A stretch of 39,436 nucleotides of DNA from Clostridia bacterium (GTDB lineage: Bacteria; Bacillota; Clostridia; UBA1381; UBA9506): positions 1 through 39,436 of the forward strand of contig JAFWAT010000032.1 of the NCBI GenBank assembly GCA_017507525.1, read 5' to 3'. The notes under the pieces are model-generated. The model was not told the DNA's origin and ran no database searches. It worked only from the letters and a program-made list of their open reading frames with translations. Position numbers and translations under genes: made by a program. Below, one piece after another: positions 716 through 7,518 of the stretch (within the stretch, counting starts at the first letter, position 1; every line of letters starts with the position of its first letter).

Positions 716-935
716 AAAAAGGTTTGCATCTAAATCTCATATCCCTTATATGCGACTTGTACTCAAGTCGCAATGAATTGCCTTCGGCATGAATTGAAAT
801 CAAAGATTTCATGAATTGAGCCTTGCGGCTCATGAATTGCACCTATCAGTGCATTAAAAGGTAATTCAATTCATGGAGCGAAGAGAGAATTCATGGCTTT
901 TAGCCAATTCACGACAACGTAGTTGTCAATTCATT
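716..935. repeat. Tandem hairpin array A with ATGAATT linkers
   Basis: A 39-base leader (716-754) is followed by short hairpins: 752-771 (GCGACTT/AAGTCGC), 779-789 (TGCC/GGCA), 796-810 (GAAATC/GATTTC), 818-831 (GAGCC/GGCTC) and 839-852 (GCAC/GTGC). The linker ATGAATT occurs at 773-779, 789-795, 811-817 and 832-838. In the right half the linker appears as its reverse complement AATTCAT/AATTCAC, around hairpins 895-905 (GGCT/AGCC) and 913-927 (GACAAC/GTTGTC). The whole array is therefore roughly mirror-symmetric. Stem sequences differ from each other but each is self-complementary. No open frame of interest crosses it. The class of element is not recognised. Confidence 0.75.
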
Positions 936-1130
936 AAAAAAGGTTTGTATCTAAATCTCATATCCCTTATATGCGGTTGCGTATCAACAGCAGCTAAATT
1001 GCCTGCGGCAGCTAAATGTGCTCCGCACACTTTTGACGAATTTAATTTAGCTACTCCGAGGGAGTTATATCGCATTTGAACAGAGTGAAAATATATCGCA
1101 TGAACGGAGCGAGTATATCGTCAAAAAACG
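936..1130. repeat. Tandem hairpin array B, second copy of the same leader
   Basis: The leader of array A is repeated almost exactly at 936-975; the two copies differ at about one base over 39. Hairpins follow at 976-988 (GTTG/CAAC), 1000-1010 (TGCC/GGCA), 1018-1028 (GTGC/GCAC) and 1053-1065 (ACTCC/GGAGT). The linker is AGCTAAAT (992-999, 1010-1017) and then its reverse complement ATTTAGCT (1045-1052). After that come three copies of TATATCG(CA), at 1066-1074, 1092-1100 and 1114-1120. A degenerate third leader (GGTGGCATCTAA, from 1130) follows. Together with array A this looks like a duplicated unit of about 220 bp that has diverged in linker and stem sequence. Confidence 0.7.
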
Positions 1131-5859: not shown

Positions 5860-6633
5860 ATGCGTGCTTTGATTACAGGAGCAAGCTCCGGCATTGGCAG
5901 GGATATTGCCCGGGTGCTGTCCGGCATGGGGTACGATTTGGTTTTGGTTGCTCGCCGCAAAGACAGGCTGGAAGAGCTGAAACAGACCCTTAAGACAAAG
6001 GTTGAAATTATCTCTCTTGATTTGTCAGAAGCCGAAAACTGCTACGCACTTTATGAGCAGACAGGGGAGATTGACGTTTTAATCAACAACGCCGGCTTCG
6101 GTTTGTTTGGCGATTTTTTAGAAACAGATTTAGAGGAAGAGCTGAAGATGCTGCGGGTCAACAGCCAGGCAATGCATATTTTGATGAAATTGTATCTCAG
6201 CGATTTTGTGAAAAGAGACAGCGGCTATATTTTAAATGTGGCGTCAGCGGCAGGATTTATGCCGGGCGGACCCCTTTTAAATACGTATTATGCAACCAAG
6301 GCGTATATTTTAAATTTAAGCCGTGGTGTTAGCCGCGAACTCAAAAAGCAAAAAAGCCGTGTGGTGCTGTCCGTTCTTTGTCCCGGACCGGTACAGACAG
6401 AATTTGAAGCGGTTGCCGGCGTGGATTTTGCATCGGTAGGGCTGAAAAGCGAAACAGTAGCACGTTATGCCATTCGTAAGCTGTTTCGCGGGAAAAGAGT
6501 CATTGTGCCGGGAATTATTTTTAAATTAGGTCGACTTCTTACGAAAATTTTGCCGGACTCTGTGTTGCTTTCTGCCGCATACATTATTCAGGCACCGAGA
6601 CGCAGGGCTGTGGAGGGAAAAAGACATGCGTAA
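5860..6633 (+). CDS. Short-chain dehydrogenase/reductase
   Basis: This 257-residue classical SDR has a Rossmann fold. The cofactor motif TGASSGIG is at 6-13, INNAG near 75-79, a conserved serine in NVASAAGF, and the catalytic YYATKAY near 143-149. VARRKDR after the second strand suggests NADP(H) preference, which is inference. The substrate cannot be told. It resembles the DltE/YqjQ-like oxidoreductases of Firmicutes in general shape. It lies in an operon after pncB and overlaps the next gene by eight bases. Confidence 0.85.
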   Translation: MRALITGASSGIGRDIARVLSGMGYDLVLVARRKDRLEELKQTLKTKVEIISLDLSEAENCYALYEQTGEIDVLINNAGFGLFGDFLETDLEEELKMLRVNSQAMHILMKLYLSDFVKRDSGYILNVASAAGFMPGGPLLNTYYATKAYILNLSRGVSRELKKQKSRVVLSVLCPGPVQTEFEAVAGVDFASVGLKSETVARYAIRKLFRGKRVIVPGIIFKLGRLLTKILPDSVLLSAAYIIQAPRRRAVEGKRHA

Positions 6634-7207
6634 AAAAGAAGAATTTATTGAGATTTATCAAAAGAATATTCATAGAGAGGGCGCAGAGAGGCTGCTTGAA
6701 TATCTGGCGTCTTCTGCCAGTGATTTTTTTACGGCACCTGCCAGCACTCGTTTTCACGGGTCATACCCCGGCGGTTTGGTGGAGCACAGCTTAAATGTGT
6801 ATCATTGCTTAAAGGATTATCTTGCCCGCCCCAGAGTGCGGGAGACCTACGGACTTGTGCCATGCGAGGAGACGGTTGCTATTGTGTCACTCTTGCATGA
6901 TTTGTGCAAGATTAATTGCTATCATGAGGGCACCCGCAACGTAAAGGGTCCTGATGGCAAGTGGACAACGGTTCCCACCTATGAATATGATGATGACCTG
7001 CCCTACGGTCATGGAGAAAAGTCTGTTTACATCATCAGCGGATTTATGCGCCTGACTCGAGAAGAGGCGTTTGCCATTCGGTATCACATGGGCTTTTCTG
7101 AGGACGAAAGCAAGCGGAATGTAGGCAAGAGCTTTGAGCTTTACCCCTTAGGCTTTGCCTTAAATACCGCCGATATGGAGGCAACATACTTTTTAGAAGG
7201 AAAATAA
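6626..7207 (+). CDS. HD-domain phosphohydrolase-like protein
   Basis: This 193-residue protein has an HD metal-binding pattern: a first histidine in GLVEHSLNV (about H54), the HD pair in SLLHDLCKIN (H91-D92), and later histidines in YGHGEKS and IRYHMGF. HD proteins hydrolyse phosphate esters, often nucleotides, but the substrate here is not evident. Its start overlaps the dehydrogenase by eight bases, with GGAGGG upstream, so the two are translationally linked. Similar stand-alone HD proteins occur in Firmicutes chromosomes and in phages. Confidence 0.8.
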   Translation: MRKKEEFIEIYQKNIHREGAERLLEYLASSASDFFTAPASTRFHGSYPGGLVEHSLNVYHCLKDYLARPRVRETYGLVPCEETVAIVSLLHDLCKINCYHEGTRNVKGPDGKWTTVPTYEYDDDLPYGHGEKSVYIISGFMRLTREEAFAIRYHMGFSEDESKRNVGKSFELYPLGFALNTADMEATYFLEGK

Positions 7208-7212
7208 ACAAA

Positions 7213-7247
7213 AACGTCAATTTCTAGAAAAGAAATTGACGTTTTTT
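7213..7247 (+). terminator. Terminator of the pncB-SDR-HD unit
   Basis: Arms AACGTCAATTTCT (7213-7225) and AGAAATTGACGTT (7231-7243) form a perfect 13-bp stem followed by T residues. Confidence 0.9.
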
Positions 7248-7249
7248 AA

Positions 7250-7362
7250 GTGAAATATTTTGCTAACGCAAAATGTGAAATAATTTACTTCGTAAATTGT
7301 GAAATAGAAAGCTCCGCTTTCTGTGAAATGAAATAAATCAACACAACGTATTGATTTATTTC
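7250..7362. repeat. Tandem hairpin array C with GTGAAAT linkers
   Basis: Four exact copies of GTGAAAT (7250-7256, 7275-7281, 7299-7305, 7323-7329) alternate with four different perfect hairpins: 7257-7274 (ATTTTGC/GCAAAAT), 7282-7298 (AATTTA/TAAATT), 7306-7322 (AGAAAGC/GCTTTCT) and 7330-7362 (12-bp arms GAAATAAATCAA and its complement). The array lies exactly between the terminators of two converging transcripts. The architecture matches arrays A and B, but with a different linker and different stems. Confidence 0.85.
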
Positions 7363-7365
7363 GTT

Positions 7366-7397
7366 AAAAAAGCACTTGCAAAATGCAAGTGCTTTTT
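7366..7397 (-). terminator. tRNA-Gly terminator
   Basis: AAAAAAGCACTTGCA and its complement pair around a short A loop. On the reverse strand the stem follows immediately after the tRNA CCA end and finishes in a T-run. Confidence 0.9.
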
Positions 7398-7472
7398 TGG
7401 AGCGGGAAACGAGATTCGAACTCGCAACGTTCACCTTGGGAAGGTGACGCTCTACCATTGAGCCATTCCCGC
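7398..7472 (-). tRNA. tRNA-Gly (anticodon CCC)
   Basis: Read on the reverse strand, the acceptor arms are GCGGGAA and TTCCCGC, the D-arm is GGCTCAATGGTAGAGC, and the anticodon stem TCACC/GGTGA encloses the loop TTCCCAA, giving anticodon CCC. The T-arm contains GTTCGAATC. The discriminator T is followed by an encoded CCA. It reads GGG glycine codons. Confidence 0.96.
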
Positions 7473-7488
7473 AATTTGACACAGCCTT

Positions 7489-7518
7489 ATTGTATCATGT
7501 TTTTTAGGTTGTGTCAAG
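7489..7518 (-). promoter_or_regulatory. tRNA-Gly promoter inside an inverted repeat
   Basis: On the reverse strand, consensus TTGACA (7513-7518), an 18-base spacer and TACAAT (7489-7494) precede the tRNA. The -35 arm TTGACACAACC (7508-7518) is nearly complementary to 7475-7485, so the region can also fold as a hairpin just after the glutamate-cysteine ligase stop. Confidence 0.75.

Follow-up and report, generated by a model that had tools for sequence, protein, structure and literature searches.

The array and its setting

In the window, by which we mean the whole 39,436-nt stretch of DNA analysed here, the heptamer GTGAAAT occurs in exact copies at positions 7250, 7275, 7299 and 7323, within the interval that separates an HD-domain gene from a tRNA-Gly gene transcribed towards it. 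The genes neighbouring the array are the HD-domain gene and a 461-amino-acid open reading frame without a Pfam match. The features of the interval are as follows.

6626-7207, plus strand: HD-domain gene
7210-7246, no strand assigned: bidirectional terminator hairpin 3' of the HD-domain gene
7250-7329, minus strand: hairpin array of four GTGAAAT linkers (ATTTCAC on the minus strand, the tRNA sense) and three perfect hairpins
7257-7274, minus strand: hairpin 1, ATTTTGC(GTTA)GCAAAAT, with a C(GNNA)G loop
7282-7298, minus strand: hairpin 2, AATTTAC(GAA)GTAAATT, with a C(GNA)G loop
7306-7322, minus strand: hairpin 3, AGAAAGC(GGA)GCTTTCT, with a C(GNA)G loop
7330-7362, no strand assigned: outer stem GAAATAAATCAA/TTGATTTATTTC after the last linker, a 12-bp stem with a 9-nt loop
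7366-7398, minus strand: bidirectional terminator of tRNA-Gly, 3' of that gene
7398-7472, minus strand: tRNA-Gly (CCC), its 3' end toward the array
7489-7517, minus strand: promoter-like site TTGACA-17-TACAAT upstream of tRNA-Gly (a consensus match only)

The three spacers between the GTGAAAT copies are perfect hairpins with 7-bp stems and loops of 3-4 nt, which read on the plus strand as ATTTTGC-TAAC-GCAAAAT, AATTTAC-TTC-GTAAATT and AGAAAGC-TCC-GCTTTCT. The first-pass annotation of this DNA had described four perfect hairpins separated by four linkers. All four linkers are indeed present, but only three of the hairpins are perfect 7-bp structures; the fourth, at 7330-7362, is of another kind and represents the outer stem of a larger element. 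In full-length relatives this outer stem encloses a half-array with forward linkers, which the window copy lacks. Judged by the orientation of these related elements, the window array corresponds, in the orientation of the tRNA and of the partner gene described below, to the second half of the element, the one with reverse linkers.

The placement of the array between two terminators, also put forward by the annotation, holds, and both terminators are bidirectional. The sole promoter-like site near the array (7517-7489, minus strand) would drive tRNA-Gly, and none was found between the two flanking terminators (7210-7246 and 7366-7398). When the minus strand was folded as single-stranded DNA, exactly the array hairpins were recovered (z = -9.7). 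Perfect hairpins flanked by heptamers were also sought de novo, in a comparison with shuffled sequence of the kind that the annotation had suggested; this returned the ATGAATT and GTGAAAT arrays of the window and nothing in five shuffles. Searches of the genome, which comprised a pattern, a family model and selected stretches, located the three-linker GTGAAAT pattern once in the 1.36-Mb assembly, at the window array. Two familiar identities were discarded: the 7-nt repeats and palindromic spacers rule out a CRISPR array, which has long repeats and unique, non-palindromic spacers, and the position between an HD-domain gene and tRNA-Gly is not that of an intervening sequence in a 23S rRNA helix.

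A member of the Gut-1 family

A covariance model search identified window positions 7248-7334 as Rfam Gut-1 (RF01706), with a score of 51.1 bits against a gathering cut-off of 50 and with model positions 1-77 complete in the match. The 2010 publication on Gut-1 (PMC2864571) presented it as a probable noncoding RNA, with human gut sequence as its only known source. Membership of the window feature in Gut-1 is thus already covered by Rfam; what is new here is what Gut-1 belongs to. In the literature searched, a scope outside which most subscription journals and preprints fell, there was no paper linking Gut-1 to the protein family PF05635, and the same literature made no mention, for Gut-1, of the coupling of heptamer to protein clade, the niche at tRNA 3' ends or the loop rule described below.

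Matches to the Gut-1 model occur in 52 of 199 related genomes, the window's own genome bringing the total to 53. In a pattern scan of GTDB, palindromic GTGAAAT arrays among the matches listed came from many gut Clostridia metagenome-assembled genomes (MAGs) and from some of Akkermansia, the hosts among these matches including goat, sheep, deer, horse and cattle; Gut-1-type arrays are therefore not restricted to the human gut, as the 2010 description had it. The Akkermansia and Akkermansiaceae MAGs at loci L007, L010 and L120 place such arrays outside the Clostridia, although contamination of the assemblies is possible. In genomes G007, G171, G183 and G193 many Gut-1 arrays are no more than a few hundred bases away from contig ends. 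This is to be expected if near-identical copies break assemblies, in which case Gut-1 copy numbers in MAGs would be underestimates.

A symmetric element at the 3' end of tRNA genes

Among relatives, the Gut-1 array generally makes up half of a symmetric, roughly 200-bp element that lies mostly just 3' of a tRNA and is built from a terminator, forward-linker hairpins and inverted-linker hairpins. Read in the tRNA sense, the full element starts with tRNA-CCA, a G, an A-run, the terminator hairpin, a T-run and CAACGAAAT; there follow forward GTGAAAT linkers with short GC-rich hairpins and a segment completing the outer stem (GGATTTATTTC), and finally inverted ATTTCAC linkers with longer AT-rich hairpins, terminating in ATTTCACT. 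A full site carries 7-8 heptamers. The window copy consists of the reverse-linker half and the outer stem, the forward half being absent, and has heptamer-spaced perfect hairpins with a terminator on the tRNA side. Stems are maintained by pairing in nearly every array copy.

The annotation had seen in the gap between converging transcripts a safe niche for insertion. This holds, and the niche can be narrowed to the region 3' of tRNA genes. Of 97 palindromic GTGAAAT arrays, 44 have a tRNA no more than 250 bp away; every one of these 44 faces the tRNA 3' end, and they are spread over many tRNA species. By comparison, only 6 of 68 non-palindromic GTGAAAT arrays lie within the same distance, four of those facing the 3' end. 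No target-site duplication was established for the elements. Past the far end of the copies at L042, L080, L095, L137 and L182 there are sequences resembling the tRNA T-arm (GTTCGAATCC), possibly remnants of a tRNA-directed attachment site.

A four-helix-bundle gene accompanies the element

At four loci a small open reading frame, whose start lies no more than about 100 bp from the element's far end, encodes a four-helix-bundle (4HB) protein of PF05635. To our knowledge these proteins have no known activity, and the family, although widespread, is functionally uncharacterised. PF05635 is the '23S rRNA IVP' family, encoded in 23S rRNA intervening sequences; a solved S23p homologue of the 4HB protein is a homopentamer, and the family resembles Avd (PMC10053308). 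A search of the same 199 genomes for PF05635 repeatedly returned matches just downstream of Gut-1 matches. Both families occur in 42 genomes, Gut-1 only in 11, 4HB only in 27 and neither in 119 (p = 4e-15, with relatedness ignored; since copies and relatives are non-independent samples, p-values such as this are too optimistic). Upstream of 59 of 89 distinct 4HB genes a heptamer is repeated in both orientations, compared with 8 of 88 on the downstream side and about 9 expected from shuffles. A tRNA precedes 31 of 86 4HB genes, always on the same strand, and follows three.

The window's own genome conforms to this arrangement, as all four of its 4HB genes have arrays or a tRNA just 5'. These are ATGAATT arrays at contig C20, GTGATAT-type arrays at C26 and C19, which are also the genome's two weaker Gut-1 matches, and tRNA-Leu with short hairpins at C24. 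A 4HB gene of the GTGAAAT clade was not detected in this genome, nor is there a cognate 4HB gene among the neighbouring genes directly downstream of the window array. In another genome of the same genus, however, a GTGAAAT array 82% identical to that of the window lies directly 5' of a 4HB gene (G002, contig C16). Only 5 of the 64 GTGAAAT-array loci examined have a 4HB gene nearby, as expected if gene-less copies either moved in trans or are remnants.

Heptamers follow the protein clades

The linkers seen in these elements are GTGAAAT, ATGAAAT, GCTAAAT, GTGATAT, ATGAATT, GTGAAGT, GTGATGT, GCGATAT and TCGATAT. Mapped on the 4HB protein tree, the linker labels can be accounted for by 15 changes, whereas shuffled labels need 45.2 on average, a contrast inflated by close relatives and drawn on a tree with many unresolved forks and a few labels assigned by eye from the sequence. 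GTGATAT (nine genes), GCTAAAT (eight) and ATGAATT (five) each occupy a single 4HB clade, while the near-identical GTGAAAT and ATGAAAT are intermixed in one. A distribution of this kind would be expected if the 4HB protein recognised its heptamer specifically.

The window holds two further arrays, some 6 kb from the first.

751-940, plus strand: array A, four ATGAATT copies followed by inverted AATTCAT copies; a gene-less homologue of the 4HB element at C20 of the same genome, with which it was aligned
993-1122, plus strand: array B, two GCTAAAT copies, ATTTAGC and three TATATCG copies; gene-less

Array B has the appearance of a hybrid between the GCTAAAT subfamily and the CGATATA-type one. The ATGAATT, GCTAAAT and GTGAAAT elements share one architecture and each occurs directly 5' of PF05635 4HB genes. 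The annotation's proposal that the three arrays form one family can thus be retained at the level of a superfamily; they are nevertheless diverged subfamilies, each with its own 4HB clade, rather than copies of one another. The common linker pattern proposed with it (AA, then A or T, then a final T) describes the three window linkers but breaks down in the related GTGATAT and GCGATAT. Because all three arrays belong to subfamilies with 4HB-linked members, those in the window are gene-less copies.

Several observations adjoin these. The repeat GGTTTGcATCTAAATCTCATATCCCTTATATGCG stands ahead of both array A and array B (714-752 and 940-975), and GCATCTAAACCATTCGGC flanks resembling it adjoin arrays at L126, L132 and L134. 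Directly after array B, the small membrane-type open reading frame at 1131-1508 belongs to DUF1294 (PF06961) and is not a 4HB gene. Other 4HB clades (L186, L174, L171, L192, L214, L221 and L224) have no hairpin arrays; in their place are tandem heptamers that lack hairpins, such as GTGCAAA and GTGAATA, or long inverted repeats, and several of these loci likewise lie just 3' of a tRNA. The use of heptamers may not be confined to hairpin arrays.

Loops follow a rule for DNA hairpins

When every array hairpin is read on the strand carrying the reverse linker, 35 of 58 distinct 3-nt loops are C(GNA)G and 31 of 50 distinct 4-nt loops are C(GNNA)G, a total of 66 of 108, and the complementary type does not occur. 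Control hairpins elsewhere in the same loci show this loop class in 28 of 560 cases, with both strands counted. All three hairpins of the window array obey the rule on the minus strand. RNA would favour GNRA loops, a subset of GNNA that is stable in RNA too. In DNA, GNA and GNNA loops with any N constitute the rule for extraordinarily stable minihairpins (PMC4686876). Among the array loops GNYA outnumbers GNRA by 22 to 11, in agreement with the DNA rule and not with that for RNA. Moreover, loop polarity inverts with the linker between the two halves of the element, and each DNA strand thus has one favourable half, whereas a single RNA would hold one good and one poor half. The oriented stem mismatches, five G.T and nine A.C, are too few to assign a strand. 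The fit to the minihairpin rule and the polarity flip together favour a role at the level of DNA, and Gut-1 probably acts as DNA.

This bears on the strongest competing explanation, that Gut-1 is genuinely a noncoding RNA, or a 5' leader, whose heptamers are single-stranded protein-binding RNA sites, for instance an autoregulatory leader bound by the 4HB protein for which gene-less copies act as sponges. RF01706 was, after all, proposed as an expressed RNA, and the stems are preserved by pairing. The position of promoter-like sequences is divided. In the GCTAAAT and ATGAATT subfamilies such a sequence lies upstream of the array, which would then be in the 4HB mRNA; in the GTGAAAT, ATGAAAT and GTGATAT subfamilies, however, it lies between the array and the 4HB gene, and the window array, enclosed by its two terminators, lacks a promoter-like site. 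Together with the loop sequences and their inversion, these arrangements make the RNA explanation unlikely in our judgement, although it retains appreciable weight.

Dispersal

In genomes G001, G002 (contig C72) and G007 the orthologous interval between the HD-domain gene and tRNA-Gly is only 43-60 bp long and contains the terminator but no array, and in G008 it is filled by other sequence. Elsewhere near-identical copies occur twice in one genome with unrelated flanks, 236 of 247 bases being identical at L026 and 206 of 211 at L042. Array-free orthologous loci and near-identical copies at unrelated flanks together demonstrate that the elements disperse. In both L026 and L042 the duplicated unit takes in the terminator, and at L042 it begins at a tRNA-like CCAG. 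As the homologue of the window terminator at 7366-7398 has been copied with the array in these two genomes, that terminator is probably part of the mobile unit.

It could be argued that the arrays are passive remnants, cis-regulatory or structural leaders left after loss of the 4HB gene and spread by ordinary duplication and recombination alone. The great excess of gene-less over gene-linked copies and the missing half of the window copy would sit well with such decay. Precise dispersed copies that include the terminator but have unrelated flanks, orthologous sites free of the array and arrays at many different tRNA species speak instead for an active spread, and we rate this explanation as improbable, slightly more so than that based on RNA.

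Two explanations that invoke known enzymes have been weakened to the point of being very unlikely. In the first, the 4HB protein is Avd-like and a reverse transcriptase makes copies from the array RNA beside the 3' CCA of the tRNA, as the resemblance of PF05635 to Avd and the tRNA-like CCAG at the start of at least one off-tRNA copy (L042) might suggest; RVT_1 (PF00078), however, has no match in the window's genome (G000; assembly about 96% complete) or in the nine other genomes of its genus, and reverse transcriptase occurs less often in genomes with Gut-1 (9 of 53) than in those lacking it (62 of 146). In the second, and marginally the weakest, the arrays are extragenic palindromes of the REP/BIME kind that owe their movement to a Y1 (RAYT/IS200-type) transposase. 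This would account for hairpins that are extragenic and multi-copy, share a short conserved sequence at their foot and stand between converging transcripts, but the partner gene found is PF05635, Y1_Tnp (PF01797) has no match in the window's genome, and across 199 genomes it is not associated with Gut-1 (34 of 53 with Gut-1, 81 of 146 without; p = 0.33).

Discussion

On balance we think it likely, with some reserve, that the window array derives from a dispersed DNA element, mobile or selfish, of which it is a non-autonomous copy of half length, and that it is a site recognised by a cognate 4HB protein. The full element comprises a terminator, hairpins spaced first by forward and then by inverted heptamers, a promoter and a PF05635 4HB gene, preferably just 3' of a tRNA. 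Each strand is predicted to expose, in one half, ultra-stable C(GNA)G and C(GNNA)G DNA minihairpins between subfamily-specific heptamers. We infer that the cognate 4HB protein probably recognises heptamer and hairpin together in single-stranded or cruciform DNA, the putative working form, and that the array would serve as a cis-acting site for the copying of the element, its control, or both. Gene-less copies such as that in the window may have been moved in trans by the 4HB protein, in the manner of MITEs.

A bolder proposal, which we advance tentatively and regard as doubtful, is that PF05635 pentamers are sequence-specific DNA-hairpin binders of a new class of tiny transposable elements without a known transposase, reverse transcriptase or recombinase, which settle at tRNA 3' ends and use the heptamer as a co-evolving private address. 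Gut-1 would then be the DNA site of one subfamily and not an RNA.

Under the preferred reading, Gut-1, whose function has so far been obscure, gains a gene partner and a testable role, its first functional lead, and PF05635 gains a candidate ligand in the clade-specific 7-nt sequence repeated between ultra-stable DNA hairpins. As the heptamer changes with the protein clade, specificity could be tested by heptamer swaps. If 4HB proteins do move or copy array sites, this would constitute a route of mobilisation without a recognised transposase, and it would establish a link among 23S rRNA intervening sequences, Avd and extragenic palindromes.

Comparison with known systems

The window copy shares with Gut-1 RNA (RF01706) the sequence and structure model, scoring above the gathering threshold. 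Rfam, however, models one half, as RNA, whereas here it is half of a DNA-symmetric element that is tied to 4HB genes and tRNA 3' ends and is present also in ruminant and other gut genomes. With Avd of the diversity-generating retroelements the partner protein has in common a homologous four-helix-bundle family, but a search of the host genome detected no reverse transcriptase and the linkage is to hairpin arrays instead. Among known kinds, those closest to the present elements are the intervening sequences that encode S23p and repeats of the REP type. Like REP/BIME and RAYT-dependent repeats, the elements are extragenic palindromes with paired inverted halves and non-autonomous copies; in contrast with these they have no Y1 partner and consist of multi-hairpin arrays whose heptamer co-varies with the 4HB clade. 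The intervening sequences of 23S rRNA that encode S23p (PF05635) are likewise small selfish elements with complementary ends and the same 4HB family, but the arrays described here lie outside rRNA, 3' of tRNAs or in other intergenic positions, and are distinguished by their heptamer-hairpin design and by an abundance of gene-less copies.
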